Below are positions 45,833 to 64,000 of a stretch of DNA of 64,000 nucleotides, in pieces. The DNA lies in contig DATGFS010000042.1 in the NCBI GenBank assembly GCA_035308905.1, forward strand, positions 67,093 through 131,092, written 5' to 3'. The first letter of the stretch is position 1. Every line of letters begins with the position of its first letter. The position numbers and the translations under genes were made by a program. Source of the stretch: a bacterium (lineage in GTDB: Bacteria > Sysuimicrobiota > Sysuimicrobiia > Sysuimicrobiales > Segetimicrobiaceae). Below the pieces are notes generated by a model. The model saw nothing but the letters and a program-made list of their open reading frames with translations, had not been told where the DNA came from and ran no database searches.

Positions 45833-45833
45833 C

Positions 45834-47111: not shown

Positions 47112-48196
47112 GGTCTGCCTCCCGTGGTGCCTCGAATGATGAGCTCGTTTGCGACCGTGGTGATGGGCCGCGCCGCCCGGTCTCCCGCGACGAGGCCGAG
47201 GAGGATCCTGGCCGCCGTCGCCCCCATCACGTCCTTGCGTATTCGGACGGTCGTCAACGGCGGGTCGGTCGTCGCCGCGAGCTCGATGTCGTCCATGCCC
47301 ACGACCGAAAGGTCGTGCGGAATCCGGAGTCCCGCCGCGCCCGCGGCGCGCATGACGCCGAGCGCCTGCTTGTCGGTGACCGCGAAGATCGCGGACGGAC
47401 GGTCGGCCAGCGCCAGCAGCTCTCCGGAGCGGCGGAAGGCGGCGTCCGCGTCGACGGGGGTCACGGCCTCGAGGGCCGGATCGCGCTCGAGCCCGGCGTC
47501 CCGCAGCGCCGCGGCGTAGCCGCTCTGCGTCTCCCGGCCGAACGGATAATCGACCGCGGCGCCGACGAAGCCGATGCGCGTGTGGCCGAGGTCCACGAGG
47601 TGCCGGGTGGCCGCGTAGGCGCCGCCGGCGTTGTCGTTGACCACCGCGGGCGCGCCGACCCCCGGCACGAAGTTGTCGAGGATCACGACGGGGACGCCGG
47701 CCCCGAGGGCCACGCGCACCCAGCGGGCCTCAACGACGCCGGCGACGAGGATGCCGTCCACTTCGCGCGCCTGCGCCATCTCGACGAAGGGCGGGGCGGC
47801 GGAGGATGGGCGCAGCGGGGGCGCGATCAGCATCCGCACCCCGACCTCCTCGAACACGCTGCCCACCCCGGCGAGGACGGCGCGGTAGAAGAGATCCGAG
47901 AAGATGCCGGTCATGTTGAGCCCCGGCACGATCGCGACGGAGTTGGAGCGGCCCAGCTTGAGCCGGCGGGCCGCGGCGTTCGGCGTATACCGCAGCCGGC
48001 GCGCGGCCTCGCGCACGCGCTGGCGGGTCACGGTGCTGATCCGAGCGCGGCCGTTGAGGGCCTGGGAGGCGGTCGGCAGCGAGACGCCGGCCAGGCGGGC
48101 CACGTCGCGCAGGCTGCTCGCCGAACCGGACCGCCCGAGGACCCGGGGCCGTCGGGCCGGAGAAGCCTTGCTCTTGCGCGTCGCCACGCGGGCCAC
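47108..48196 (-). CDS. LacI-family transcriptional regulator
   Basis: The product is 362 aa (GTG start). The N-terminal helix-turn-helix SLRDVARLAGVSLPTASQALNG followed by RVREAARRLRYTPNAAARRL and the hinge is the LacI DNA-binding unit, here after a basic 27-residue extension. The rest is a periplasmic-binding-protein-like sensor with IGFVGAAVDYPFG and a closing VVGMDDIELAATTDPPLTTVR. It probably binds the 18-bp palindrome at 48261, which overlaps its own promoter, and a near-copy at 59050. The inducer is unknown but could be a sugar or polyol. Confidence 0.9.
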   Translation of the reverse strand: MARVATRKSKASPARRPRVLGRSGSASSLRDVARLAGVSLPTASQALNGRARISTVTRQRVREAARRLRYTPNAAARRLKLGRSNSVAIVPGLNMTGIFSDLFYRAVLAGVGSVFEEVGVRMLIAPPLRPSSAAPPFVEMAQAREVDGILVAGVVEARWVRVALGAGVPVVILDNFVPGVGAPAVVNDNAGGAYAATRHLVDLGHTRIGFVGAAVDYPFGRETQSGYAAALRDAGLERDPALEAVTPVDADAAFRRSGELLALADRPSAIFAVTDKQALGVMRAAGAAGLRIPHDLSVVGMDDIELAATTDPPLTTVRIRKDVMGATAARILLGLVAGDRAARPITTVANELIIRGTTGGRP

Positions 48197-48426: not shown

Positions 48427-49872
48427 TTGCCAGCACGGCCTCTGGGTTCGGGACAGGTGGTCGAGGCGGCCCGGGATCTCCCGGTCGCGCACGAGACCGA
48501 TGTCCTCGTTGTCGGCGGCGGCATCGCCGGCGTCATGGCGGCCCTCGCCGCCGGCCGGACCGGCGCGCGGACGCTCCTCGTCGAGCGTTTCGGCTCCCTC
48601 GGCGGTACCGGCACCGCGGCGATGATGAACCTGTTCTACGTGCCGTACGCCGCGTCGCGGGGTCTCGTCCGCGAGCTGTTCGACCGGCTCATCGCCCGGG
48701 ACGGCGCGATCCCCGGCGAGTTCGTCGTCTACGACCCCGAGCTCTACAAGGTCACAGCTTTGGAGATGCTGGCGGAAGCGGGCGTCCGCGTGCTGCTGCA
48801 CACGTTCGTCAGCGACGTCGTGATGGACGGTCGCGATCTGCGGGGCATCGTCGCCGAGAACAAGTCCGGGCGCCAGGCGATCCTGAGCCGCATCACCGTG
48901 GACGCGAGCGGCGACGCGGACATCGCCGCGCGCGCCGGCGCGCCGTACATCAAGGGGCGCGAGCGGGACGGCAAGATGCGGCCGATGACGCTCATCTTCC
49001 GGATGGGCGGCGTGGACGTCCCGCGGCTCGTGGACTACGTGCGCACGCACCCCGAGGACTTTTCGCCCGATCCGCTCCAGTGCATGCTCGATCTCGAGCA
49101 TCAGATGATCCGCGTCTTCGGCTTCTTCAAGCTCGTCGAGGAGGCGAAGGCGCGCGGCGAGCTGTGGCCGGACTGCTACTACTTCCGCGTCGAGTCGGTC
49201 CTGCCGGACCGCGGCGTCCTCACCGTCAACGCGACGCGCGTCTACGGCGTGGACGGGACCAACGCCGAGGACCTGTCCCGCGCGGAGATCGAGACGCGGC
49301 ACCAGATGATCCAGCTCGCGAACTGGGCGCGCGCGCGCGTGCCGGGCTTCGAGCGTTCGTTCATCCTCGACTCCGCGAACACGATCGGCGTCCGCGAGAC
49401 GCGCCGCATCCGGGGCGAGTACCTCATGACCGAGGAGGACATCCTCGCCGGGCGGCACTACGACGACGTCGTCGGGGTCGACGCGAACCAGCAGAACCCG
49501 CGCCAGCAGGGCGGGCACCCGCCGGACGGGCAGGAAGGCGGGCCGCAGGACGTGGAGGCGCGGGAGCTCGTGGCCCGGATGTTCGTCTACGAGATTCCGT
49601 ACGGGTGCCTCCTGCCGCGGGAGGTGGACGGCCTGCTCGTCGCCGGCCGCTGCATCTCCGTCGACCACCACGCCGACGTGTACACGCGCAACCAGGGAAC
49701 GGCGATGGCGACCGGCGTCGCCGCGGGCGTCGCCGGTGCGCTCGCCGCCCGCGCCGGCGTGCCGCCGCGGGCGGCCGACGTCCGCGCGGTGCAGCGCGAG
49801 CTGACCCGTCTCGGCGTCGATCTCGAGCTGCTGCGGCGCCTCGGCCCGTCGCCGGCGTCGCTCGAGGTCTGA
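48427..49872 (+). CDS. FAD-dependent oxidoreductase (FAD_oxidored family), first of a pair
   Basis: The product is about 481 aa; the first available start is TTG 48427. The dinucleotide-binding motif VLVVGGGIAGVMAALAAG (about residues 26-43) ends in the ribose-binding Glu of LLVERFG. The family's repeated features follow: VDASGDADIAARAG (about 158-171), LTVNATRVYGVDGTN, IGVRETRRIRGEYLMTEED and a late GLLVAGRCISVDHHADVY flavin-contact block. A Gln/Gly-rich insert sits near 350. Members oxidise or reduce poorly known substrates and are often found in sugar-acid or aromatic pathways. It is divergent from lacI and probably controlled by it. Confidence 0.85.
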   Translation: MPARPLGSGQVVEAARDLPVAHETDVLVVGGGIAGVMAALAAGRTGARTLLVERFGSLGGTGTAAMMNLFYVPYAASRGLVRELFDRLIARDGAIPGEFVVYDPELYKVTALEMLAEAGVRVLLHTFVSDVVMDGRDLRGIVAENKSGRQAILSRITVDASGDADIAARAGAPYIKGRERDGKMRPMTLIFRMGGVDVPRLVDYVRTHPEDFSPDPLQCMLDLEHQMIRVFGFFKLVEEAKARGELWPDCYYFRVESVLPDRGVLTVNATRVYGVDGTNAEDLSRAEIETRHQMIQLANWARARVPGFERSFILDSANTIGVRETRRIRGEYLMTEEDILAGRHYDDVVGVDANQQNPRQQGGHPPDGQEGGPQDVEARELVARMFVYEIPYGCLLPREVDGLLVAGRCISVDHHADVYTRNQGTAMATGVAAGVAGALAARAGVPPRAADVRAVQRELTRLGVDLELLRRLGPSPASLEV

Positions 49873-51290: not shown

Positions 51291-51438
51291 CCGGGCCGGG
51301 CCGCGCCAAGGGAGGCACGTCGAGGTGGGAAGGGAGGGACACCGCCGCGCGGAGCTGTTGATCGCGTACGCCGCACCACGGCGGGGCCGGATCGGTACGC
51401 CGGCCCGCCTAGATCATCAGGGGGAGGGGATCACGCGT

Positions 51439-52833
51439 ATGTTGCGTCAGCCACGATACCGGGTCGCCGCGACCGTGTTTGCGATGTTGCTCGTAGCGGT
51501 GCTCGTCACGGGCTCGCTGCCCCAGACGTCGCGCGCTCAGAGCATGACCACGCTTACGTTCCTGGGGCCCGACTTCGACGAGTGGGTCGCGTTCGTCAAG
51601 GTGGCGAACGAGATCGGCAAGCCGATGGGTATCCAGATCAAGCCGGAGTACCTGCCTTGGGACAACGTCTTCCAGAAGGCGCTGATCGACTACAAGTCCG
51701 GCGTGAAGACGTGGGACTATGTCTACGTCTACAACACTTGGATCCCCGGGCTCGCCGCGGCCAAAGCGGTCATCCCGATTGACGACCTGATGACGACGCC
51801 CGCGGCGAAAAAGGCGGTGGCGCCGGAGGACTTCATCAGCCTGACCACAGTCGGCCTCCAGTTCCAGAACAAGCTGTGGGCGATGCCGATGCTGGCCGCC
51901 CCGTACATGATGGGGTACCGGACCGACCTGTTCGCCGATCCGACCGAGAAGAAAGCGTTTCAGGCCAAGTACGGCTACCCGCTCGCCGTTCCGCAGACCT
52001 ATAAGCAGCTGATGGACGTGGCGCAGTTCTTCACGCGCAAGGCCGGCGCGACGCTGATGGGCAAGCCGCTCGACCAGGACTTCTACGGCGTCGTCATGGC
52101 GAACAAGAGCGGCGGCTTCCTGTTCCACCGGTACGAGCACATCCTCGTCGCGTTCGGCGGGGACCTGATCTACGACCCCAAGACCATGCAGCCGACGGTG
52201 AACTCGCCGCAGAGCATCGCCGCGGCCAAGTACTACGTCGCCCTGCACAAGTACATGGAGCCCGGGAGCGAGTCGCTGACCGGCGGCGGCGCCGAGCGCA
52301 TCATGGCGTCCGGCCGCGGCGCGATCGCGATGGACGCCCTCGACAACATGCTGTCGGTGCTGCCGGTGGCGAAGCTCTCCAAGATCGTCGGCAAGGTCAG
52401 CTACACCCTGCTGCCGACGCAGGTCGCGAGCCGGCCCCACGCCAACGTCGGCGACGCGAACGGCCTCGCGATCTACGCGCTGACCCAGCACAAGGCCGAG
52501 GCGTTCAAGCTGGCCACGGCCGTGCTGAACACGCAGGGGACCAAGCAGGTGATGAAGGAGTACCCTGCGCTGATTCCCATGCGCTCGTCGGTGATCAAGG
52601 ATCCGGAGGTGCGCACGAACTATCCGAACGTGTTCAACGCGATGAGCAGCTTCATCAACGGCAAGCCGTACACGACGTTCATCCCGCCGCTCAAGGAGTG
52701 GGTCCAGGCCCAGGATATCTACGAGCAGGCGCTGTCGGCCGCGATGTCGGGCCAGCAGTCCGTGGAGGACGCGCTCAGCGGCGCCCAGGCCAAGGTGGTA
52801 GACTTCTTCAAGCGGCAGGGCTACGTTAAGTAA
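51439..52833 (+). CDS. ABC transporter substrate-binding protein, sugar type (family 1)
   Basis: The product is 464 aa from ATG 51439 (SD GGGGGAGGGG). A signal peptide ends near SRAQS. The mature protein shows the extracellular sugar-binding layout: TLTFLGPDFDEW, WDYVYVYNTWIPGLAAA, IPIDDLM, LWAMPMLAAPYMMGYRTDLF (about residues 150-170), NKSGG, and a C-terminal QQSVEDALSGAQAKVVDFFKRQG typical of family-1 SBPs. The two permease genes follow after a stable hairpin. No ATPase follows; the UgpC-like ATPases at 34102 or 41334 could serve. Confidence 0.9.
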   Translation: MLRQPRYRVAATVFAMLLVAVLVTGSLPQTSRAQSMTTLTFLGPDFDEWVAFVKVANEIGKPMGIQIKPEYLPWDNVFQKALIDYKSGVKTWDYVYVYNTWIPGLAAAKAVIPIDDLMTTPAAKKAVAPEDFISLTTVGLQFQNKLWAMPMLAAPYMMGYRTDLFADPTEKKAFQAKYGYPLAVPQTYKQLMDVAQFFTRKAGATLMGKPLDQDFYGVVMANKSGGFLFHRYEHILVAFGGDLIYDPKTMQPTVNSPQSIAAAKYYVALHKYMEPGSESLTGGGAERIMASGRGAIAMDALDNMLSVLPVAKLSKIVGKVSYTLLPTQVASRPHANVGDANGLAIYALTQHKAEAFKLATAVLNTQGTKQVMKEYPALIPMRSSVIKDPEVRTNYPNVFNAMSSFINGKPYTTFIPPLKEWVQAQDIYEQALSAAMSGQQSVEDALSGAQAKVVDFFKRQGYVK

Positions 52834-52850
52834 CCGCCTAATGCGGCGCC

Positions 52851-52890
52851 GGAGGGCCGCCGTCCGCCTCACGGCGGGCGGCGGCCTTCC
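52851..52890 (+). other. Intercistronic stem-loop between SBP and permease genes
   Basis: An 18-bp stem (52851-52868 with 52873-52890, two G-U pairs) closes a TCAC loop and has no T-run after it. Such hairpins after SBP genes commonly protect the SBP mRNA or reduce read-through, giving more binding protein than permease. Starts 18 bases after the SBP stop. Confidence 0.65.
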
Positions 52891-52914
52891 GACCGGCGTC
52901 TTTCGGAGCGCGCG

Positions 52915-53814
52915 ATGGGAATGAAGTGGGCGGTCCTCGGCAGCGGGCGGTTCTATTTCTGGTTGATGACGGTGCCCGCCGTGCTCTACGTGGTCGTGTG
53001 GCGGCTGGCCCCCGCGGTCTACACGTTGTGGCTCGGCCTGCACACGTACAACATCGTGTACGACAACGCGCCGCGCTGGAACCATCTGGCGAACTTCGTC
53101 CAGATCGCGCGCGACGGCGCGCTCCGCCAGTCGCTGGGACTCTCCGCGAAATTCGGCCTCATCGCCACGGCCGCCGAGGTGCTGATCGGACTCGCCGCGG
53201 CGATGTTCTTCGACACCGACCCGCCGGGACGGAACCTGCTGCTCGGCGTCTTCCTGCTGCCGATGATCATGGCGCCCGTCGTGGTCGGCACGGCCTGGGG
53301 CACGTTGTTCGACCGGACGGTCGGCTACATCCCCTACGTCCTGCACCTGCTGCACGTCCCGCAGCCGGATTGGATGGCGACGCCGGGGACGGCGATGTTC
53401 GCCCTGCTGGTCGCGGACGCGTGGGAGTGGACGCCGCTTGTGACGCTCCTGCTGTTCGCGTCGCTGCAGGCCATCCCGCGCGAGCACTTCGAGGCCGCGC
53501 GCGTGGACGGCGCCTCGGGATGGCAGCTGTTCCGCCGGATCATCCTCCCGCAGGTCACGGGCATGGTGCTCGTCGCCGCCGGCCTTCGCCTCATGGACGC
53601 GTTTCTCGAACTCGACAAGGTGTTCGTCATGACCGGCGGCGGCCCGGGCTCGTCGACACAGTTCGTGAGCATGTTCGTGTACAAGCAGGCGTTCCAGTTC
53701 TACGAGCTGGGATACGCGTCGGCCGTGATCACGGTGCTCCTGGCCGTCCTCGGCGCCGCCTACTGGCTCTATCTGCGCAGCTACTACCGGGCCCTCGGGG
53801 CGGCGAACCTGTAA
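52915..53814 (+). CDS. Sugar-type ABC transporter permease (MalF/UgpA-like)
   Basis: The product is 299 aa. Six hydrophobic helices are visible. The coupling loop reads IPREHFEAARVDGASGWQLFRRIILPQVTGMV (about residues 182-213), the EAA form of MalF-type sugar permeases. The DLMDAFLELDKVFVMTGGGPGSSTQ-like region (LRLMDAF...TGGGPG) near 230 is diagnostic for this group. The stop overlaps the next start (TAATG). Confidence 0.9.
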   Translation: MGMKWAVLGSGRFYFWLMTVPAVLYVVVWRLAPAVYTLWLGLHTYNIVYDNAPRWNHLANFVQIARDGALRQSLGLSAKFGLIATAAEVLIGLAAAMFFDTDPPGRNLLLGVFLLPMIMAPVVVGTAWGTLFDRTVGYIPYVLHLLHVPQPDWMATPGTAMFALLVADAWEWTPLVTLLLFASLQAIPREHFEAARVDGASGWQLFRRIILPQVTGMVLVAAGLRLMDAFLELDKVFVMTGGGPGSSTQFVSMFVYKQAFQFYELGYASAVITVLLAVLGAAYWLYLRSYYRALGAANL

Positions 53815-54725
53815 TGGACGCGCGCGAGCTGGCCCCGCGCGAAGGCGAAGCGGACGTGCTGCTCCGGCCGGCGGCCCGCGCGCGTGCGCGCGTCCGCGAC
53901 CGCTCGGCGGCCGCCGCCCGCCGCGCCCGCTGGCAGATCGCGGGCATCATCGCGCTGCTGGCCTGGACGCTGCCGCCGTTTCTCTACCTCGTCATGCTGT
54001 CCATCAAGCCCGAGCGGATTCTGATCGACCGGTCGGCGCTGTTCTTCGTCCCGACGTTCGAACGGTACACCGACTTTGTCGCGAGCGGCCTGGCGGGGCC
54101 GATTTGGACGAGTCTGATCACGTCCACGCTGGGCGCCCTCGGCACCGTCGTGCTGGCCGGCCTCGCGGCAATGACGTTTCGGTTCCTGGATTTCAAGGCC
54201 AAGACGGTGCTCTTTCTGCTGATCCTGCTGCCGCGGATGTTCCCGCCCGTGACGACGCTGATTCCCATTCAGCTGACGCTGAAGGCGATGGGCCTCATCG
54301 ATACCAAGACCGCGCTCGTCATCCTGTTCATCGGGTTCGAGATCCCGCTGGCGATGTGGGTGCTGCACACCTTCCTCGCGGACGTGCCGCGGGAGCTCGC
54401 CGAAAGCGCGGCGCTGGACGGCGCTTCGCTCCCGGCGATCGTGCTGAAGATCCTGTTGCCGCTGGCCGGCCCCGGACTGCTCGCCGCCTTCATCCTCGCC
54501 TTCATCTTCAACTGGAACGAATTTCTATTTCCCTTGATCGTGACGAGCTTCAACGCGCGCACCGGCTCCGTGGCGATCATGAGCTTCACCGCCGGCTACA
54601 AGAAGCTGCAGTGGGGCGCGCTGGCCACGCTCGGCGTGATCATGACGATCCCCGTGGTGCTGTTCGTGCTGGCGTTCCGGCAGTCGCTGGTCCGCGGCTT
54701 CACCGCGGGCGCGCTCAAAGGCTGA
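53814..54725 (+). CDS. Sugar-type ABC transporter permease (MalG/UgpE-like)
   Basis: The product is 303 aa. It has a long, Arg-rich cytoplasmic tail (about 40 residues), then six helices. Motifs are RFLDFKAKT, LPRMFPPVTTLIP, the EAA loop PRELAESAALDGASLPAIVLKILLPLAGPG (about residues 195-224) and FNWNEFLFPLIVT, all typical of MalG-type proteins. It partners the preceding permease. The next gene, a peptide-type SBP, follows after 25 bases, so both importers may be one transcript. Confidence 0.9.
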   Translation: MDARELAPREGEADVLLRPAARARARVRDRSAAAARRARWQIAGIIALLAWTLPPFLYLVMLSIKPERILIDRSALFFVPTFERYTDFVASGLAGPIWTSLITSTLGALGTVVLAGLAAMTFRFLDFKAKTVLFLLILLPRMFPPVTTLIPIQLTLKAMGLIDTKTALVILFIGFEIPLAMWVLHTFLADVPRELAESAALDGASLPAIVLKILLPLAGPGLLAAFILAFIFNWNEFLFPLIVTSFNARTGSVAIMSFTAGYKKLQWGALATLGVIMTIPVVLFVLAFRQSLVRGFTAGALKG

Positions 54726-54750: not shown

Positions 54751-56331
54751 ATGGCGAACGGAGGCACACGCACCGAAGCCGATCCGCGCGGCCTGACCCG
54801 GCGGCGGCTGCTCGCGCTCACCGCGGGGGCCGCGGCGGGCGCGGCGCTGCCGGCCGGCGGCCTGTTCGACCGCCGCGTGCTGGCGGCCGCGGAGAAGCGC
54901 GGCGGAACCCTGACCGTCGGCGTGAACACCGATCTCGTGTCGCTCGATCCCAACGACATCGTGTTCGCCAACGTGCCGATGTTCTTCCAGGTCTACAACT
55001 ACTTGGTCAAGTACACCACGACGCTGCAGGCCCGTCCGGACCTCGCCGAGTTCTGGGACGCGGCGAAGGACGGCATGAGCGTCGTGTTCCGCCTCCGCGA
55101 CGGGGTGCGGACGCATTCCGGCGGCACCTTCGGCGCCGACGCGCTGATCGCCAATTTCCGCCGCACCAAAGACAAGGCCACCGGCGGGGGACTGTTCAGC
55201 CGCCTCGGCGACTGGGAAGCCGCCGACCGGCTCGACGCGAGAACGGTGCGGTTCCGGTTCGCCCATCCGCATCCCGACTACCTGGCCCAGATCGCCCGGT
55301 GGGGCATGGTGGACCCGGCGTCGTTCGCGACCGTGCGGAACAAGGGCGGCGGGACCGGACCCTTCCGCGTGCAGGAGTGGGTGCCGGGCGACCACGTCAC
55401 CTTCGCCCGCTTCGACGGCTACTGGCAGCAGGGGCTGCCGCTGCTCGACCGCGTGGTCTGCCGCGTGTTTTCGGATCCGCAGGCGCTCGAGAACGCCTTC
55501 CAGGCCGGGACGGTCGACGTCGCGCACACGATCGTCAACAAGGACGTCGCGCGCCTCAGGCAGGCCGGGTTCCAGATCGCGCCCGCGCCGGTGCCGAACG
55601 AGTACTACGTGCTCGTCATCAACACGCGCAAGCCGCCGCTCGACAACATCAAGGTCCGTCAGGCGATCCAGCTCCTGGTGGACCGCGCTACGGTGGTGCG
55701 CACGGTGCTCGGCGGCGTCGGCCGGCCGGTCGCGCAGATGGTGACGCCCGCCTCGCCGGGCTACGATCCGAAGCTGGACGCCGAGTACGGGTACAATCCG
55801 GCGAAGGCGAAGCAGATCCTCGCGTCCGCGGGCATCGGCCGCGGCGTGCGGCTGAACTTCCTCACGTCTACGAGCACCCCGGAGCTGCCGCAGATCGCGC
55901 AGATCATCCAGGCGGATCTCCGGCAGGCCGGCCTCGACGCGAACATCACGATCCACGAGCCGGCCCAGTACTTTCCGCCCTACTTCGCCGGCAACTTCGA
56001 TCTCAGCCTCTCGTTCCTCACGCTGGCGACCATCGATCCGACGGACTTCACCATCAGTTCGGCGTTCCGCACGGACGGGACGAACCCGGCGTGGATCCAG
56101 ACCGGGCCGCCGCGCGAATACGTCGACGGCCTGCTCGGCCTCAACACGACCTTCGACATGCGGGAGCGGTGGACGCGGCTGCGCGCGGTGATCCGCTACA
56201 TCCTGGATCAGGCGTGGGCCGTGCCGGTGGCGCTGCGGCTCCCCACCTACGGCCTCGCGAAGCCGGTGGCCGGGTTCGACGTCGATCCGCAGATGCTGAT
56301 CCAGCTGAAGGGGACCTGGCTGAACCGCTAG
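54751..56331 (+). CDS. ABC transporter substrate-binding protein, family 5, Tat-exported
   Basis: The product is 526 aa. A twin-arginine signal (LTRRRLLALTAGAAAG, about residues 16-31) precedes a mature protein with TVGVNTDLVSLDPNDIVF, FRLRDGVRTHSGGTF near residue 115 and RQAIQLLVDRATV near 310. It is the fourth peptide-type SBP in the window. It begins an operon with a creatininase-family amidohydrolase placed between it and the two permease genes, an arrangement that hints at an amide- or lactam-containing ligand. Confidence 0.85.
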   Translation: MANGGTRTEADPRGLTRRRLLALTAGAAAGAALPAGGLFDRRVLAAAEKRGGTLTVGVNTDLVSLDPNDIVFANVPMFFQVYNYLVKYTTTLQARPDLAEFWDAAKDGMSVVFRLRDGVRTHSGGTFGADALIANFRRTKDKATGGGLFSRLGDWEAADRLDARTVRFRFAHPHPDYLAQIARWGMVDPASFATVRNKGGGTGPFRVQEWVPGDHVTFARFDGYWQQGLPLLDRVVCRVFSDPQALENAFQAGTVDVAHTIVNKDVARLRQAGFQIAPAPVPNEYYVLVINTRKPPLDNIKVRQAIQLLVDRATVVRTVLGGVGRPVAQMVTPASPGYDPKLDAEYGYNPAKAKQILASAGIGRGVRLNFLTSTSTPELPQIAQIIQADLRQAGLDANITIHEPAQYFPPYFAGNFDLSLSFLTLATIDPTDFTISSAFRTDGTNPAWIQTGPPREYVDGLLGLNTTFDMRERWTRLRAVIRYILDQAWAVPVALRLPTYGLAKPVAGFDVDPQMLIQLKGTWLNR

Positions 56332-56341
56332 GAGGGCGGCG

Positions 56342-57166
56342 ATGCCGGCTGGTCCCGTCAGGGGGGAGACGGACGTGGAGATCCGCTACGAACTGATGCG
56401 GCCGCAGGACATCGTCGCCGCGCGCCGGCGGGCGCCGATCGCCTACCTGCCGATCGGCCCGATGGAGTGGCACGGGCCGCACATGGCCGTCGGTATGGAC
56501 ATGCTGCACGCGCACACGATGGCGCTCGAGGCGGCGCGCAAGGCCGGCGGGGTCGTCCTGCCGCCGCTGCCGCTCGGCACCGAGACCTATACGGACGCGG
56601 AGCGCCTCCGGCACCGCGGCTTCAGCGGGACCGAGCGCATCTACGGGATGGACTATCCGGGCTTCGCGCTGCCGAGCCTGTACATCGAGGAGAGCGCGTT
56701 CGCGCTGATCGTGCGCGAGGTGGTCCGCGGGCTGAAGCGCCAGGAGTTCAAGGTGATCGCGCTCGTGAACGGCCACGGCGCCCAGAACCACCGGAACACG
56801 CTCACGCGCGTGGCGACGGAAACGACGGAGCCGGGCCGCGCGACCGTCCTGCTCGCGGGGTACCTCTACGACGGTCGGTACCGCGAGCACGCGGCGATCG
56901 GCGAGACGTCGTACCTGCTCGCGTACCATCCCGAGGCCATCGACCTCGCGGCGCTGCCCGCGCTGCCGGAGCCGCTCGGGTACCGGGACTTCGGCATCCT
57001 CGATCGCCAGACCGTCGTCGGCGAGCCCACCCCGGACTTTACCGTGGCCGCGGAACACGATCCGCGCCGGGCCACCGCCGAACGGGGCCGCGACGACGTG
57101 GCCTACGAGTCCGATCAGATCGCCCGGAGGGTCAGCGAGGCGCTCGCCGCGCTCGAGCGGACGTAG
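56342..57166 (+). CDS. Creatininase-family amidohydrolase
   Basis: The product is 274 aa. The metal-site signatures are PIGPMEWHGPHMAVGMDMLHA (Glu and His ligands near residues 41-43, Asp near 51; the family usually reads EQHG, here EWHG) and LVNGHGAQN (about residues 140-148), plus Glu in AAIGETSYLLA. Family members hydrolyse creatinine, cyclic amides and formamide-type bonds. Its place between an SBP and its permeases, ten bases after the SBP gene, suggests it opens a ring or amide in the transported compound. Confidence 0.85.
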   Translation: MPAGPVRGETDVEIRYELMRPQDIVAARRRAPIAYLPIGPMEWHGPHMAVGMDMLHAHTMALEAARKAGGVVLPPLPLGTETYTDAERLRHRGFSGTERIYGMDYPGFALPSLYIEESAFALIVREVVRGLKRQEFKVIALVNGHGAQNHRNTLTRVATETTEPGRATVLLAGYLYDGRYREHAAIGETSYLLAYHPEAIDLAALPALPEPLGYRDFGILDRQTVVGEPTPDFTVAAEHDPRRATAERGRDDVAYESDQIARRVSEALAALERT

Positions 57167-57175
57167 GCGGGGGCC

Positions 57176-58135
57176 ATGGCGGCCGGCGGGCTGGGACGCT
57201 ACCTGGCGCGGCGGGGCATCGAGGCCGCGTTCACCCTGTTTCTCGCGTCCGTGCTGGTCTTTGCCATGGTGGCCGCGCTGCCGGGGGATCCGGCGCAGGT
57301 CATTCTCGGGGACCGCGGCACCCCCGACCAGCTGCGCGCCCTGCGGGCGTATCTCGGCCTGGACCGGCCGCTCCCGCTGCAGTACGGGGGGTGGATCGTC
57401 CGGATCGCGCACGGCGATCTCGGGCATTCGCTCATCAACGGCGCGCCGGTGGCCGGGCTCGTCGGGCGCGCCCTGCCGCTGACGCTGCAGCTCTCGCTGT
57501 GGGCGTTCGCCGTGGTCGTGCTGATCGCGTTTCCCGCGGGCATGTTCGCGGCCACGCGGCCGCGGTCGCCGCTCGCGGCCGCGCTGCGCTGGTACCACGG
57601 ATGGGCCCTGGCCGTGCCGGTGTTCTGGCTCGGGGCGATCCTGTCGTGGTACTTCGGCGTAGTCCTGAAATGGCTGCCGCCCTCGGGGTTCGTCGGCCTC
57701 GCGGAGAGCCCGTCCGGGTGGGCGCGCAGCCTCGTGCTGCCGGGCGTCACGCTCGGCCTCGGCGTCGGCTCGGTGATGGCGCGCTTCGTGGAGGCGTCGC
57801 TCGGCGACGTGCTGTCGAACGACTACGTGCGCACGGCGCGCGCGAAGGGCCTGCCGGGACGTGCGGTGGTGTGGCGGCACGCGCTCGGCAACGCGCTCAT
57901 TCCGATCGTCACCGTGCTCGGCATCCAGGCCGGGTTCTTCATCGGCGGGGCCGTGATCACGGAGGCCGTGTTTGCGATTCCGGGGCTCGGCAGCATGCTG
58001 TGGCGCTCGATCCTGACGCGCGACTATCTGGTGACGCAGTCGGTGATCCTCGTCGGCATCGCGGCGTTCGTCGTGATCAATCTCTGCACTGACGCGCTCT
58101 ACGGCCTGCTCGATCCGCGGGTGCGGTATCAATGA
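57176..58135 (+). CDS. Peptide-type ABC transporter permease (DppB-like)
   Basis: The product is 319 aa. Features are an N-terminal RYLARRGIEAAFTLF helix, YLGLDRPLPLQYGGWI, a DYVRTARAKGL coupling loop with RHALGNALIPIVT (about residues 215-245), and CTDALYGLLDPRVRYQ at the end. About six membrane helices. It begins 10 bases after the creatininase-family gene and pairs with the DppC-like protein encoded next. Confidence 0.9.
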   Translation: MAAGGLGRYLARRGIEAAFTLFLASVLVFAMVAALPGDPAQVILGDRGTPDQLRALRAYLGLDRPLPLQYGGWIVRIAHGDLGHSLINGAPVAGLVGRALPLTLQLSLWAFAVVVLIAFPAGMFAATRPRSPLAAALRWYHGWALAVPVFWLGAILSWYFGVVLKWLPPSGFVGLAESPSGWARSLVLPGVTLGLGVGSVMARFVEASLGDVLSNDYVRTARAKGLPGRAVVWRHALGNALIPIVTVLGIQAGFFIGGAVITEAVFAIPGLGSMLWRSILTRDYLVTQSVILVGIAAFVVINLCTDALYGLLDPRVRYQ

Positions 58136-58160
58136 CGGGCGCCGCGTTCCCGGCGCGCCG

Positions 58161-59027
58161 ATGACGGTGTCGGCGAGGGCGCTCGCGGGCAATCACGCCC
58201 CTCTCCGCGCCCGGGCGGCGCGGCGCGCGCGGGTCCCGGACGCGGGCGCCGTCTTCCTGATCGCGATCGCGGCCGCGGCCGCCGCCGCTCCGCTCCTCGC
58301 GCGGTACGGGCCGACGGACATGAGCAAAGAGACAGTGCTCGCGCTGCCGTCGTGGAGCCACCTCGCGGGCACGGACCAGTTCGGGCGGGACATCCTCAGC
58401 CGTCTCTTGTACGGCGCCCGGATCGCGCTCGCGATCGGCGTCGGGTCGACCGCGGTCGCCGCGGTGTGCGGGGTGCCGCTCGGCCTCTGGACGGGCTTCA
58501 AAGGCGGCGCCGTGGACGCCGCCGCGATGCGGACCGTGGATACGCTCCTCGCGATCCCCCCGGTGCTGCTCGCGATGGCGCTCGTGGCCGCGGTGGGGCC
58601 GGGGTCGGTGAACGCCGGCGTGGCGATCGCGATCGTCGGCCTGCCGCAGTTCGCGCGGATCGCCCGGGCCGGCGTGCTGACGCACCGCGAGATGGAGTAC
58701 GTGGAGGCGTCGGTCGCCGCGGGCGCGCGCGACGCCCGGATCGTCTTTCGCACCATCCTACCGAACGTGCTCTCGCCGGTGCTGGTCCAGATCCCCATCG
58801 GCGTGTCCCGCGCCATCCTGCTCGAGGCGAGCCTGAGCTTTCTCGGCCTCGGGACCCAGCCGCCGCAGCCCTCCTGGGGACTGATGATCAGCGAGAGCCG
58901 CGAGTACATGTACGCCGCGCCGTGGTACGGCATCTTCCCGGGCCTCCTGATCGCGTTGACCGTGCTCGCGTTGAACCACGCGGCGGACCGGGTACGGGCC
59001 CGCTGGAGCCCTGATCGGGCGCGCTAA
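58161..59027 (+). CDS. Peptide-type ABC transporter permease (DppC-like)
   Basis: The product is 288 aa. It has a 35-residue cytoplasmic tail, a first helix rich in Ala, then LAGTDQFGRDILSRLLYG (about residues 69-86), the coupling loop SVAAGARDARIV with RTILPNV, and ASLSFLGLGTQPPQPSWG. It completes the 54751-59027 importer; again no ATPase gene follows. The next feature downstream is the operator-promoter of the grd-like operon. Confidence 0.9.
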   Translation: MTVSARALAGNHAPLRARAARRARVPDAGAVFLIAIAAAAAAAPLLARYGPTDMSKETVLALPSWSHLAGTDQFGRDILSRLLYGARIALAIGVGSTAVAAVCGVPLGLWTGFKGGAVDAAAMRTVDTLLAIPPVLLAMALVAAVGPGSVNAGVAIAIVGLPQFARIARAGVLTHREMEYVEASVAAGARDARIVFRTILPNVLSPVLVQIPIGVSRAILLEASLSFLGLGTQPPQPSWGLMISESREYMYAAPWYGIFPGLLIALTVLALNHAADRVRARWSPDRAR

Positions 59028-59168: not shown

Positions 59169-60563
59169 ATGAGATTCTTTGGGCATGCCGACGTGATCGT
59201 CGTCGGGGGCGGGACCGCCGGCATCGTCGCGGCGATCGCCAGCGCGCGAAGCGGCGCGCCGACGCTGCTCGTGGAGCAGTCGAGCGGTCTCGGCGGGACG
59301 AGTACCAGGGGTCTCATGAACTGCTTCGTGACCTTTCACGACGCCGGAGGCCGCCAGGCCGTTCGCGGCATCGCCCAGGAGATCGTGGACCGGCTGGTCC
59401 GGGCGGGCGGCTCGGCCGGGCACACCGCGGATACGATGGGTGAATGCGTGACGCGCGTCCTCTTCGACCCGTTCGTGCTCGGCAACGTGCTGTTCGAGAT
59501 GGCGGGGGAGGCGGGCGTCGAGCTGCTGCTGCACAGCAGCGTCGTCGACGTGCTGATGGACGGCGACCGGCTGAAGGGGCTGGTGCTGCACAACAAGGGC
59601 GGGCTGCAAGTTGCGACGTGCGGTGTGTGCATCGACGCGAGCGGCGACGGGGACGTGGCGGCGGCCGCCGGCGCGCCGTTCGAGAAGGCGGCGCGCGGAG
59701 AGCTGCAGCCGATCACGCTGATGTACCGCCTCGGCGGCGTGGACATCGACCGGTGGGCCGATTTCGTCCGCGGGCGGCCGCGGGAGTTCGAGATGACGCG
59801 CGTGCCCGACGATCCGCGCGCGGAAGGGCTCGGGATCATGAGCCTGACGTATTTTCAGCCGTTCCGGGACGCGGTGCGGGCCGGGGAGCTGCCCCGCGGA
59901 ATCTCCGGCGAGCAGGTGTGGCTCTTGTGCGGACGCGAGGAGGCGCGGCAGGGCGTCGTGACGGTCAACGGCACGCGGGTGGAAGGCCTCGACGGGACGA
60001 ACCCGCGCGAGCTGACCCGCGCCGAGGCGGACGCCCGGCGCCAGGCCGCCGGGCTCAGCGCGTGGCTCCGCGGCCGCATGCCGGGGTTCGAGCAGTGCTA
60101 CATCTACCAGACCGCGCAGCAGCTCGGCGTGCGCGAGACCCGGCGCATCGTCGGCGACTACATGCTGACTGAAGACGACGTCTTGTCGGCGCGGGCGTTC
60201 GAGGACGCGATCGCGAAAGGATCCACCCCCATCGACATCCACGGCGGCGCCGACGCCGGCGGCGAGAACTACTGGATCAAGACCACCGACTTGGGCATTA
60301 TGGCGTACGATATCCCGTACCGGTGCCTCGTGCCGCGCAACGTGGAGCAGCTGCTCGTCGCGGGCCGGTGCATCTCGACCACCCATAAGGCCCACGGCGC
60401 GACGCGCATGCAGCCGGTGTGCATGGCGACCGGGCAGGCCGCCGGCACCGCGGCGGCGCTCGCCGCCGCGCGCGCGGTGCCGCCGCGCGCGATCGACGTC
60501 CGCCACCTGCAGGACGCGTTGATCCAGGCCGGCCAGGTGATTCGCGAAGACCAAATGGTGTGA
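59169..60563 (+). CDS. FAD-dependent oxidoreductase of the FAD_oxidored family, in the grd-like operon
   Basis: The product is 464 aa from ATG 59169 (GGGGGG about 9 bases upstream). The dinucleotide site is VIVVGGGTAGIVAAIASARSG (about residues 9-29 with LLVEQ after it). Later blocks are IDASGDGDVAAAAG, VTVNGTRVEGLDGTN, LGVRETRRIVGDYMLTEDD and LLVAGRCISTTHKAHGATRMQP. It is the third paralogue of this family in the window. It is encoded ten bases before the grdB-like gene under a promoter carrying a LacI operator, so it could pass electrons to or from the reductase or prepare its substrate. Confidence 0.85.
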   Translation: MRFFGHADVIVVGGGTAGIVAAIASARSGAPTLLVEQSSGLGGTSTRGLMNCFVTFHDAGGRQAVRGIAQEIVDRLVRAGGSAGHTADTMGECVTRVLFDPFVLGNVLFEMAGEAGVELLLHSSVVDVLMDGDRLKGLVLHNKGGLQVATCGVCIDASGDGDVAAAAGAPFEKAARGELQPITLMYRLGGVDIDRWADFVRGRPREFEMTRVPDDPRAEGLGIMSLTYFQPFRDAVRAGELPRGISGEQVWLLCGREEARQGVVTVNGTRVEGLDGTNPRELTRAEADARRQAAGLSAWLRGRMPGFEQCYIYQTAQQLGVRETRRIVGDYMLTEDDVLSARAFEDAIAKGSTPIDIHGGADAGGENYWIKTTDLGIMAYDIPYRCLVPRNVEQLLVAGRCISTTHKAHGATRMQPVCMATGQAAGTAAALAAARAVPPRAIDVRHLQDALIQAGQVIREDQMV

Positions 60564-60572
60564 GGCGATAGG

Positions 60573-61907
60573 ATGGACGCTCACGGGTTGCGGGTGGTTC
60601 ATTACATCAACCAGTTCTTCGCGGGGATCGGCGGCGAAGAGCGCGCCGACACGCCGCCGGCCGTCAAGGACGGCCCGGTCGGTCCCGGACGGGCGATCCA
60701 GGCCGCCCTCGGTTCGCACGGCGCCGTGGCCTCGAGTATGGTCTGCGGCGACAGCTACTTCAACGAGCGGATCGACGCGGCCGGCGAGGCGGTGCGCGCG
60801 TGGCTCGGCGCGCAGCGGCCCGACGTGGTGATCGCGGGCCCGGCGTTCGCCGCGGGCCGGTATGGGCGCGCCTGCGTCGAGGTGTGCCGCATCGCCGCGG
60901 ATCTCGGGATTCCCGCCGTCACCGGCATGCACCCCGAGAATCCCGGGCTGTTGATGTACCGGGAGGCGTACGTCGTGCCGACCGCCGGCAACGCGGCGGG
61001 CATGGCCGCGGCGCTCGGCGCGATCGTGCCGCTCGCCCGCAAGCTCGGCGCGGGGCTCCCGGTCGGACCGGCGGAGGACGAGGGCTACCTGCCGCGCGGC
61101 ATCCGGCGGCCCGGAGCGCGGGCGCTGCCCGGGGCGCGGCGGGCCGTCGATATGCTCGTCGCCAAGCTCGGCGGGACGCCGTTTCGCACCGAGCTCCCGG
61201 TCGAAGGCTACGAAGCCGTGGCGCCCGCGCCGCCCGTCGCGGACATGCCCCACGCGACGATCGCGGTGGTGACGACCGGCGCGATCGTGCCGAAGGGCAA
61301 TCCGGACCACCTCAAGCGGTGCAGCGAGACGCGGTGGCAGCGCTACGAGCTGGAGGGGCGGACGCGCCTCGAGCCGGACGAGTTCGAGTGCGTCCACGGC
61401 GGCTTCTACAACGTCCCGGCGTCGGAGAACCCGAACGTCGTGCTGCCGCTGGACGCGCTGCGGGAGCTCGAGCGCCGCGGCCTCTTCGCGCGGCTCGCCG
61501 ACTTCTACTGCACCACGACCGGCAACGACCAGCGGTTCGCGGACTGCGTGCGCAACGGCAAGGAGATCGCGGAGCTGCTCTGGCAGGAGCGGATCGACGG
61601 CGTGCTGCTCGTCGCGACCTGAGGGTCGTGCAATCGTTGCGGCGCAACGATCAGCAAAGAGATCGAGCGGCGGCGGATCCCGGTGGCCGTGATCAGCGCG
61701 CTGCCGCCGCTGGCGATGCAGGCCGGCGCGAACCGCGTCGTGCAGGGGGTCAAGATCGAGCACGTCTGCGGGGACCCGGCGCTGCCGGCGGAGGAGGACG
61801 GGGAGGTGCGCCGGCGCCTCGTGGAGCGCGGGCTGCGGGCGCTCGGGACCGCGGTGGAGCGTCCCACGCTCTTCGAAGGGGACGGCACGATGGTGACGGC
61901 GCGGTGA
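60573..61907 (+). CDS. grdB: GrdB-like selenoprotein (glycine/sarcosine/betaine reductase component B), in-frame UGA at 61620-61622
   Basis: The product is 444 aa if the TGA at 61620-61622 is read as selenocysteine; without it the protein would end at 349. Start ATG has GAGG eight bases upstream. GrdB features run across the UGA: VHYINQFFAGIGGEERAD, IAGPAFAAGRYG, VTGMHPENPG, GYLPRGIRR, IVPKGNPDH, then VLLVATUGSCNRCGATISKEIER, matching my memory of the TSTUGTCTRCG Sec site. U350 with Cys353 and Cys356 forms the redox centre that attacks the C-N bond of the substrate. The frame continues to 61907 with normal family sequence. It overlaps grdE by 4 bases. Component B specificity (glycine, sarcosine, betaine or another amine) is not decided here. 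Confidence 0.9.
61629..61656 (+). promoter_or_regulatory. Bacterial SECIS-like hairpin of grdB
   Basis: ATCGTTGC (61633-61640) pairs perfectly with GCAACGAT (61644-61651) around loop GGC. TGC (61629-61631) pairs with GCA (61654-61656) across an internal A/CA loop. The loop starts 18 bases after the UGA, as expected for a SelB-recognised element inside the coding sequence. Confidence 0.8.
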
Positions 61908-63253
61908 CGGCGTCGATGAACCTGACCGTGGGGACGTTTCCCGTCCGCGAGGTGGCCTTCGGCGCGCCGGCGGGATGGCGGGACGGGCGCCTCGTCGTCG
62001 ACGCGGACCGCGTCGCGGCGCTCGTGCGCGAGGACCGCCGCATCCGGCGCGTCGCGGTGGATCTCGTTCAGCCGGGAGAGGCGGCGCGGATCGTGCAGGT
62101 GCGCGACGTGATCGAGCCGCGGGTCAAGGTGGAGGGGCCCGGCCACACCTACCCCGGCATCTGCGGCCACGCACCGGACACCGTGGGCGACGGCGTCACG
62201 CACCGCTACGCCGGCCTCGGCGTGCTGATCGCGTCCGAGGCGCTGCCCCACATCCGGCGCACGGTCAGCGCGGCCACCGACAGCCTGATCGACATGTCCG
62301 GGCCCGGCGCCGTCACCGTGTACAGCACGCTGCGCTACGTCGCCCTGACCATCGAGACGCTGCCGGACCTCGATCTCACCTCGTGGAACGACGCGCTGCG
62401 CGGGGCCGCCCACCGCGTCGCGGCCGACCTCGCGGAGCTCGTGCGCGCCCAGACGCCGCCGGAACGGCGCGCGTACCTCCTGGCGCCGCCCGCCGCGGGA
62501 CGCCCGCGGGTCGTGCACGTGCACACGCTCAACGCCTCGATGGTCCCGGGGATCGGCACCGGCATCTATGGGTACACGCAGCACGCCCTGCCGGTGCTGC
62601 TGCACCCGAACGAGATCCTCGACGGGGCGATCGCCGGCGACGCCGTCGTCACCTATCCCGGGAAGTGCACCTGGCTGCACGTGAACAACCCGGCGCTCGG
62701 CGCGCTGTACGAGCGCGACGGGACGGATCTCGCCTGGCTCGGCTCGATCATCTCGCGCACGCGGTGGGGCGGGCTCGACGAGAAGCGCCTCAGCGCGTAC
62801 CAGACCGCCAAACTGGCCGCGATGCTCGGCGCCGACGGCGCGCTCGTCACCTGGAACCACGGCGGCAACGATCTCCTCGAAGTGATGATGACGATTCAAA
62901 GCCTCGAGCGCGCGGGCATCAAGACGACGTTCCTCACGATCGAGTCGGACATCAAGGTGGTGCGGATGACGCCGGCGCTCGCGGAGACCGGCACCTCGGA
63001 ACCGCCGCTCTTGTTCAGCGTGCCGGAGGCCGACGCGATCGTCAGTACCGGGACCCTCGCCCCCGCCGACCCGCTGCCGGCGATGCCGCGGGTGATCGGC
63101 GGGCGGGACGTCGTGTTCGATCAGGAGCGCCCCGACGTCCGCACCCCCGCGGCCGGGCCGCTGGATCTCGAGGCGGTGTCGGGCGCATACTCGCCGATCT
63201 TCGGGCACTTCGACAACTACGGTCTGGGGCGCCAGAGCTACCTTGACTACTGA
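61904..63253 (+). CDS. grdE: GrdE-like reductase component B alpha/beta subunit, processing cysteine not conserved
   Basis: The product is about 449 aa from GTG 61904 (4-base overlap with grdB); ATG 61916 is possible. GrdE landmarks: VRDVIEPRVKVEGPG (about residues 67-80), DTVGDGVTHRYAG, LIDMSGPGA, LHPNEILDGAI, HVNNPALGALYERDG and TTFLTIESD. In classical GrdE the precursor is cut before a Cys in a GNCVSAC segment to make a pyruvoyl group. Here the aligned segment reads GDAVVT (Asp246-Ala247) and the nearest Cys is 255, eight residues away. Either the subunit is not processed, or cleavage occurs elsewhere. This comparison is from memory. Confidence 0.85.
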   Translation: MTASMNLTVGTFPVREVAFGAPAGWRDGRLVVDADRVAALVREDRRIRRVAVDLVQPGEAARIVQVRDVIEPRVKVEGPGHTYPGICGHAPDTVGDGVTHRYAGLGVLIASEALPHIRRTVSAATDSLIDMSGPGAVTVYSTLRYVALTIETLPDLDLTSWNDALRGAAHRVAADLAELVRAQTPPERRAYLLAPPAAGRPRVVHVHTLNASMVPGIGTGIYGYTQHALPVLLHPNEILDGAIAGDAVVTYPGKCTWLHVNNPALGALYERDGTDLAWLGSIISRTRWGGLDEKRLSAYQTAKLAAMLGADGALVTWNHGGNDLLEVMMTIQSLERAGIKTTFLTIESDIKVVRMTPALAETGTSEPPLLFSVPEADAIVSTGTLAPADPLPAMPRVIGGRDVVFDQERPDVRTPAAGPLDLEAVSGAYSPIFGHFDNYGLGRQSYLDY

Positions 63254-64000
63254 GGGCGCGAGGCCGGTCTCGAACGGCGTCCGGCCCGTCGTCCGCGCGG
63301 CGCGGTTTGCGATGGCCCATACCCCCGCGCTGATCGCGGCCGGCTCGAAGCCGCGGCGGGAACTCGCCGTGCGCGGGGCGGCGGAGCGCGAAGCCCTTCT
63401 CAGGCACCTGCGGTCGTTCGAGGACGCCGTGCGGTATCCGCCGCACCAGGTGATGCTCGGCGCGCTCCCGCCCGAGGCGCTGTGGGGGATTCCGAGGCCG
63501 TGGCATGACCGGCCGGTGGACGGAGCGCGGGCGGAGGGCCCCGGCGGCCGGATGCTCGACGAGATGGAGTTCTACGCGTGGCTGGCTCGGGCGGATGCGG
63601 CGAGCCTGCTCTATGTCACCCCGGAGTTCGCGCGGACGCTGCAGCACTTCGGCGCGCCCGAGCGGATCCAGACGATGACAGCCCCCGGCCTGGCGCGGGC
63701 GGTGGAGCGCGGCGCCGAGCCCCTGCGGCGCACGCCCGACGAGACGGTCGGTGCCGTCGTCCCCGCGCACGAGCAGGACGAGTCGCTCGCGGCGCCGGTG
63801 CTGCTGGAGAACCTCGCGGCCAAGGTCACCGGCGGGCTCGCTCTGCGGGCGCTCCTCGACGCGGTCGACTCGGACACTCCCGTCGACTACCTGATTGGAT
63901 GCGGCGAGGAAGCGGTAGGCGATCGGTATCAGCGCGGGGGCGGCAACCTGGCAAAAGCGATGGGAGAGCTCGCCGGCGTCCGGACCGCCGGGGCGTCGGA
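63243..64000 (+). CDS. grdC: GrdC-like reductase component C subunit beta (3' end outside window)
   Basis: An open frame runs from TTG 63243 (11-base overlap with grdE) to the window edge, 252 codons. It matches GrdC as I remember it: RAARFAMAHTPALI near the start, LRSFEDAVRYPPHQVMLGAL, GIPRPWHDRPV, EMEFYAWL, GAVVPAHEQDESLAAPVLLENLAAKVTGGLAL and DYLIGCGEEAVGDRYQRGGGNLAKAMGELAGV. GrdC is a thiolase/FabH-like subunit that with GrdD turns the Se-carboxymethyl intermediate into acetyl phosphate. Its active-site region lies beyond the edge. Its presence shows the operon is not just an isolated grdB/E pair. Confidence 0.85.
   Translation, partial: MTTEGARPVSNGVRPVVRAARFAMAHTPALIAAGSKPRRELAVRGAAEREALLRHLRSFEDAVRYPPHQVMLGALPPEALWGIPRPWHDRPVDGARAEGPGGRMLDEMEFYAWLARADAASLLYVTPEFARTLQHFGAPERIQTMTAPGLARAVERGAEPLRRTPDETVGAVVPAHEQDESLAAPVLLENLAAKVTGGLALRALLDAVDSDTPVDYLIGCGEEAVGDRYQRGGGNLAKAMGELAGVRTAGAS

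Follow-up and report, generated by a model that had tools for sequence, protein, structure and literature searches.

A GrdD-less class of selenocysteine-containing Grd operons in Sysuimicrobiota, with a GrdC that may deliver its acyl group to coenzyme A

Acetyl phosphate is the established product of glycine reductase and its relatives, and the means by which they conserve energy. In the described mechanism protein B binds the substrate, protein A acquires a carboxyalkyl selenoether through selenocysteine (Sec) chemistry, and component C, composed of GrdC and GrdD, takes the acyl thioester and yields acetyl phosphate (PMC13188914, PMC10298544, PMC9908766). The peptide 242–266 of Clostridioides difficile GrdE has a pyruvoyl group, derived from Cys, at its N-terminus (PMC9908766), and the Cys in question is reported to be absent from the betaine-type GrdI and the fluoroacetate-type FarE (PMC10838667). 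GrdB-family selenoproteins outside the clostridia, including those of Chloroflexota and deep-branching phyla, have already been published (PMC9751293), so that finding a Sec-containing GrdB beyond the clostridia is, taken alone, no novelty. The interest of the locus described here lies in its GrdD-less class, more than in the Sec-containing GrdB. Such a class is not reported in the literature that we searched, a search with most subscription journals outside its scope and no proof of absence elsewhere.

The DNA analysed, called the window throughout, is a stretch of 64,000 nucleotides from a genome of the Sysuimicrobiota (CSP1-3), an uncultured soil phylum. Its nearest named relatives are metagenome-assembled genomes (MAGs) labelled 'Terrabacteria group bacterium ANGP1', which NCBI places in Candidatus Sysuimicrobiota, formerly CSP1-3. 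The paper on the phylum describes facultative anaerobes, proposes the reductive glycine pathway for them and reports pta and ack to be absent in all its MAGs; glycine reductase, grd and selenium are unmentioned in its main text (PMC11604079).

The selenocysteine codon of grdB

60573..61907, plus strand: grdB-family gene for selenoprotein B (444 aa, Sec350); frame read through the TGA and profile matches
61620..61622, plus strand: TGA codon read as Sec, motif ATUGSCNRCG; relatives, dN/dS and Sec machinery
61633..61651, plus strand: SECIS-like hairpin with an 8-bp stem and a 3-nt GGC loop; compensatory changes in relatives

Positions 60573–61907 encode a single 444-aa protein once the TGA at 61620–61622 is translated, and both family profiles run across this codon. 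TIGR01918 matches residues 7–435 with 446 bits (cut-off 65.45) and the Pfam family GRDB (PF07355) matches with 401.9 bits (cut-off 22; E 3.5e-120), so that the gene is a full-length member of the GrdB family by both curated cut-offs. As in that family, the Sec lies in a UxxCxxC motif and is accompanied by a SECIS and by the Sec machinery. GrdB relatives were found in 14 of the 43 genomes of the phylum searched, each of those covering the position having TGA at the same codon, and TGA occupies the Sec codon in all 99 GrdB copies alignable there, from Bacillota to Chloroflexota, Rokubacteria and Deltaproteobacteria. Against relatives of 70–90% identity, dN/dS of grdB is 0.17–0.36 over the 94 codons downstream of the TGA and 0.16–0.33 upstream; as judged by these ratios, the frame beyond the TGA is under purifying selection.

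The hairpin occupies bases 14–32, counting from the T of the TGA, and four of its pairs have changes on both sides among 23 distinct sequences. Double-change cells numbered 18 against a shuffled mean of 3.5 and the covariation score was 0.333 against 0.113, with 0 of 500 shuffles as high in either measure. Given the shared ancestry of the sequences and the coding nature of the region, this count should not be taken as an exact probability. Sliding the partner strand gave scores of at most 0.106, and these controls point the same way as the shuffles. The window had no match to Rfam at gathering thresholds, and the SECIS was assessed by covariation instead. In the window's genome, a 5.3-kb stretch of contig C33 holds selA (547 bits), selB and selC, the gene of tRNA-Sec(UCA), and selD lies on contig C3. 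The selD gene (L123; G000:C3:79138-80058) has an in-frame TGA and probably encodes a selenoprotein itself. Further matches to the tRNA-Sec model on contigs C10, C22 and C34 were rejected as ordinary tRNAs by ARAGORN.

The Sec reading of the TGA is about as firm as sequence can give. TGA is a stop in the standard code, but an ordinary stop followed by a remnant of 94 codons is scarcely credible beside the TGA in 99 of 99 relatives, the purifying selection beyond it, the covarying SECIS and the full Sec machinery. The original prediction, of a Sec codon in a GrdB-family gene, of one continuous GrdB frame on either side of it and of the residue motif ATUGSCNRCG, is thus borne out on each point. 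Sister genes with a real stop at the codon and a genome devoid of Sec machinery had been named beforehand as findings that would speak against it; no covering relative has such a stop, and tRNA-Sec(UCA), selA, selB and selD are all present.

The grdBECA operon, its surroundings and its substrate

61904..63253, plus strand: grdE/grdG-family gene (component B partner) lacking the pyruvoyl-precursor Cys (Ala247); profiles and alignment
63243..64000, plus strand, continuing beyond the window to ~64706: grdC (component C beta); profile
~64703-65170, plus strand, outside the window (L004:5796-6263): grdA with its own Sec TGA; profile
59177..60563, plus strand: FAD_oxidored-family gene immediately preceding grdB, in a frame open from 59091; Pfam, also in G028
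58161-59027, plus strand: DppC-type gene; Pfam
57176-58135, plus strand: DppB-type gene; Pfam
56342-57166, plus strand: creatininase-family gene; Pfam
54751-56331, plus strand: SBP5 gene; Pfam
51325..54725, plus strand: SBP_bac_1-type solute-binding protein and two permeases; adjoins grdBECA in most clade relatives
48427..49872, plus strand: second FAD_oxidored-family gene; upstream in the loci of five relatives
47108-48196, minus strand: LacI regulator, in the divergent block 44669..48196
45834-47111, minus strand: DegT/DnrJ aminotransferase, in the same block
44669-45832, minus strand: Gfo/Idh/MocA gene, in the same block

The operon has the order grdB-grdE-grdC-grdA, with grdB first and grdE (61904–63253) overlapping its stop. 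grdC matches the component C beta profile with 506.6 bits (cut-off 450), and grdA matches the profile of Sec protein A with 177.3 bits (cut-off 130) and has its own TGA in CFVU, a codon that is TGA in 68 of 68 GrdA copies examined. The same gene order is kept in clade relatives, at 67–95% identity, wherever the contig is long enough. Sec protein B (GrdB and its GrdE-type partner), Sec protein A (GrdA) and GrdC are in this way shown, at the level of sequence, to be encoded in one operon. The gene had been presented beforehand as a GrdB-like gene, with the advice to look downstream for grdD, grdA and thioredoxin genes. Its place in the GrdB family stands, with the correction that it is not isolated and belongs to a grdBECA operon; grdA is indeed found downstream, together with grdE and grdC, and neither grdD nor a thioredoxin gene is adjacent.

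Two further GrdB paralogues are encoded in the window's genome, on contigs C28 and C64. The C28 cluster (L006:12082-19901) comprises an enoyl-CoA hydratase gene, grdB, grdC, grdA, a GrdG-like gene and an ADP-forming acyl-CoA-ligase-like gene, and another GrdE-like frame begins at the contig end. The C64 paralogue (L002; G000:C64:28470-29771, minus strand) adjoins a GrdG-like gene and a spermidine/putrescine-type ABC transporter; it reads UGTGTRSG, with the Sec kept and both following Cys lost, as reported for the fluoroacetate protein FarB. Variation was also seen in other genomes. In G028, one GrdB orthologue (G028:C11, L144:12129-16153) is split by a frame change and its grdE and grdC matches are also broken, and a second, intact grdBECA lies ~20 kb from the broken copy. 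A contig labelled Gemmatimonadetes (L043, QHUL01000001.1) carries a Sysuimicrobiota-type grdBECA whose GrdC groups with that of G021, and it was probably mis-binned or transferred. A Chloroflexota locus (L050:10001-18174) has three adjacent GrdB-GrdE pairs without a local grdA or grdC, which suggests several substrate modules feeding one shared core.

Kept near grdBECA in the phylum are the SBP_bac_1-type transporter and the FAD_oxidored gene. An enolase-superfamily gene of the MR/MLE type (79–90% identical, six genomes), a zinc dehydrogenase gene and a Gfo/Idh/MocA gene occur at varying distance. The block of SBP5, creatininase-family and DppBC genes (54751..59027) is found in the same form only in G023, G028 and G033 and looks like a later addition. 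The divergent block at 44669–48196, upstream of the FAD_oxidored gene, is amino-sugar- or aminocyclitol-like. Overall the context has the flavour of polyol, amino-sugar or sugar-acid breakdown, too loose to name a substrate. The LacI gene (47108–48196, minus strand) and the FAD oxidoreductases are real, and the original prediction is upheld in its description of a lineage of high GC content, rich in transporters, for which Stickland fermentation is not known. The contrast that it drew with clostridial operons also holds, although it had been placed in the transporters and the FAD enzyme and resides chiefly in three other features: GrdD is absent, GrdE has lost the pyruvoyl Cys and GrdC is of a different class.

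The pyruvoyl-forming Cys is aligned in the GrdE of 39 of 39 loci of the GrdD type, and Ala247 stands in its place in the window GrdE, which therefore departs from the glycine and sarcosine types. The Cys is also replaced in Chloroflexota-type GrdE, and alignment shows it to be absent too from the betaine-type partner of Enterococcus; it is kept in three genomes of one family of the phylum, f2 (L152–L154), and in L119. Structure searches yielded no solved structure related to GrdB and none convincingly related to GrdE. The window GrdB falls below the glycine reductase equivalog TIGR01917 (413 vs 602.2 bits) and lacks the published glycine motif (PMC9751293), which 38 of 40 GrdD-containing loci match. 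For the sarcosine type, GrdF reaches 451.7 vs 800 bits and GrdG 177.8 vs 780, and the sarcosine (GrdF) motif (PMC9751293) is absent from the window GrdB. The betaine profile GrdH gives 381 vs 775 bits, although the missing pyruvoyl Cys does agree with a betaine-type partner, and the fluoroacetate reductase profile FarE gives 76.2 vs 675 bits. The substrate thus appears to be neither clearly glycine nor clearly sarcosine. A route from creatinine to sarcosine, suggested by the creatininase-family gene upstream and by GrdF as the best-scoring subtype, was rejected: the creatininase-family protein scores 64 bits, far under the creatininase cut-off of 235, the sarcosine motif is missing from GrdB, and the gene block is missing from many relatives. 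A Pfam tally over rough gene calls found no recurrent partner among GrdB neighbours in Chloroflexota, Rokubacteria, Acidobacteria and other phyla, so that it gave no pointer to a substrate.

Absence of GrdD and two classes of GrdC

Component C alpha (GrdD) is a part of the complete Grd reductase complex that the window's genome lacks. With a cut-off of 350, the best GrdD match there scores 21.5 bits, a level also reached by control genomes without Grd and read as housekeeping PlsX. GrdD is above cut-off in none of the 43 genomes of the phylum and in none of 11 other non-Bacillota Grd genomes tested, which are bins of Chloroflexota, Rokubacteria, Acidobacteria, Deltaproteobacteria and one labelled Gemmatimonadetes, with completeness not given; both Bacillota control genomes have it. 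At the level of loci, GrdD directly follows GrdC in 41 of the Bacillota type; the 16 GrdD-less loci whose sequence continues for 2.9 kb or more downstream never have it next to GrdC. An assembly gap is an unlikely cause, because the window's genome is 97.3% complete and many genomes agree. The acetate kinase family (PF00871) has no match in the window's genome, which therefore lacks this element of Stickland-type energy conservation, and is absent above cut-off from 12 of the 14 GrdB genomes of the phylum; the remaining two, G028 and G033, have an acetate-kinase-family gene.

The absence of GrdD is accompanied by a separate class of GrdC. In a tree of 59 GrdC proteins, built by a quick method and containing some long branches, 42 of the GrdD type are split from 17 others by a branch with 100% SH-aLRT support; the sequences were drawn from the 80 top-scoring matches to an alignment centred on Sysuimicrobiota and are not a census. 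The window GrdC has V225, R228, Y229, K255, C258, K294, H373, H427 and A431 (P0003 numbering). Differences between the classes, GrdD-less before GrdD-type, are V225/C, R228/M, Y229/N, K255/R, K294/N, H373/Q and A431/G, and Cys258 and His427 are invariant in both. One GrdD-less sequence, L119, is an exception with Gln at position 373. GrdD and GrdD-type GrdC residues go together in Acetoanaerobium noterae, Enterococcus gilvus and a gammaproteobacterium, Photobacterium DA100; as these organisms lie outside the set used for the signature, they are an outside check, of this one class only. The GrdC on a Calditrichales contig (L095, JAJGRE010000002.1) falls inside a Lutispora/Gracilibacteraceae branch and the GrdE there is 88% identical to that of Lutispora, which points to transfer or contamination. 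No GrdC relatives were found in viral contigs.

A model of a GrdC of the GrdD-less class (L042; pLDDT 90) has a thiolase fold, with MvaS as best match, including its CoA-bound, Cys-acetylated form (Z 22.2, rmsd 3.9 over 282 residues). At the sequence level, GrdC matches KAS III around the active-site Cys (E 1.5e-5), and the class-specific His373 falls within the loop where KAS III has its catalytic His. A weak alignment puts Glu371 of GrdC, not His373, at that catalytic His, and as this is the sole KAS III alignment at the loop, a clean triad of Cys258, His373 and His427 is not claimed.

Fate of the acyl group and comparison with known systems

By analogy with the Grd mechanism, GrdB and GrdE would bind an alpha-substituted carboxylic acid, which need not depend on the pyruvoyl carbonyl, given a GrdE without the corresponding Cys. 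The Sec would attack the alpha carbon, the leaving group would depart and the carboxyalkyl group would end on the Sec of GrdA, where cleavage of the selenoether would form an acyl thioester on component C. Since GrdD and, in the window's genome, acetate kinase are missing, we infer that the acyl group on Cys258 could be handed to CoA by GrdC itself, with acyl-CoA and not acetyl phosphate as product. We therefore favour, as probable, that these Grd selenoenzymes are a variant lacking GrdD in which GrdC would pass its acyl group to CoA. The C28 cluster, which places grdBCA beside genes of CoA-ester metabolism (enoyl-CoA hydratase, acyl-CoA-ligase-like), counts for acyl-CoA as the product. GrdD-dependent GrdC has the thiolase fold, the Cys and the second His as well, so these features alone are no proof of CoA transfer, and we count the Glu371 alignment, Gln373 of L119 and the acetate-kinase-family gene of G028 and G033 against it.

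Hydrolysis of the acyl thioester on GrdC to the free acid, by which an electron-accepting substrate would be removed or used and the thioester energy not conserved, is an unlikely alternative. It would make both GrdD and acetate kinase unneeded, acyl-CoA synthetases of the phylum could activate the acid afterwards (PMC11604079), and the fold of GrdC is common to many acyltransferases; yet a GrdC of thiolase fold that is conserved across several phyla and has basic residues specific to its class would be elaborate for a hydrolase, and on C28 grdBCA is combined with CoA-ester enzymes. Quite improbable in our judgement is a canonical-like Grd system making acyl phosphate, in which a non-homologous phosphotransacylase or the housekeeping PlsX would take the place of GrdD. 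No replacement gene occurs within the operon of any relative, acetate kinase is missing from the window's genome, pta is reported absent from the phylum (PMC11604079), and the GrdC residues shift together with the absence of GrdD, which suggests a changed partner or acceptor. What such a system could draw on are the weak PlsX-like GrdD matches in the window's genome and the controls, the family active-site Cys retained in GrdC, and the acetate-kinase-family gene in two Grd genomes of the phylum.

Returning to transfer to CoA, its extension to a whole class is put forward more tentatively. The GrdD-less class of Sysuimicrobiota, Chloroflexota and Deltaproteobacteria might couple Sec-dependent reductive cleavage of alpha-substituted acids directly to acyl-CoA via a dedicated GrdC, bypassing acetyl phosphate, and in family f2 it might convert glycine to acetyl-CoA as the last step of the reductive glycine pathway. 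Operons of the order GrdG-GrdB-TrxR-GrdC-GrdA in three f2 genomes (L152, L153 and L154 in G011, G008 and G010, respectively) have no GrdD, a near-glycine GrdB motif, a pyruvoyl-type GrdE and a TrxR-like gene inside, and are candidates for glycine reduction tied to that pathway. If the product is acyl-CoA, the class would provide a direct, Sec-dependent entry to central carbon metabolism in lineages reported without pta and ack. The GrdD-less class occurs across soil, groundwater and marine phyla and is marked by its own GrdC residues, which offer a simple means to separate the classes; when metagenomes are read, grd genes unaccompanied by grdD should not be annotated as ATP-yielding reduction of glycine or betaine.

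The system shares with the clostridial GrdABCDE, GrdFG and GrdHI systems the GrdA, GrdB, GrdC and GrdE families and their association in operons, the Sec positions in GrdA (CFVU) and GrdB (UxxCxxC) and a SECIS after the TGA. Unlike them, it has no GrdD and a GrdC of a distinct class, its genome is without acetate kinase, and its GrdB does not match the clostridial substrate motifs; GrdE without the pyruvoyl Cys resembles the betaine type and differs from the clostridial glycine and sarcosine types. In its predicted fold, GrdC is like the HMG-CoA synthase MvaS and KAS III/FabH, but it is a member of the Grd component C family with an additional N-terminal region, and no condensation reaction is proposed for it. 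With FarB and FarE of Cloacibacillus (PMC10838667) the locus has in common a variant protein B, made of a Sec-containing GrdB relative and a non-pyruvoyl GrdE relative. Unlike FarB, which is reported without them (PMC10838667), the window GrdB keeps both Cys after the Sec; its GrdE lies far below the FarE cut-off, and the operon has its own grdC and grdA.
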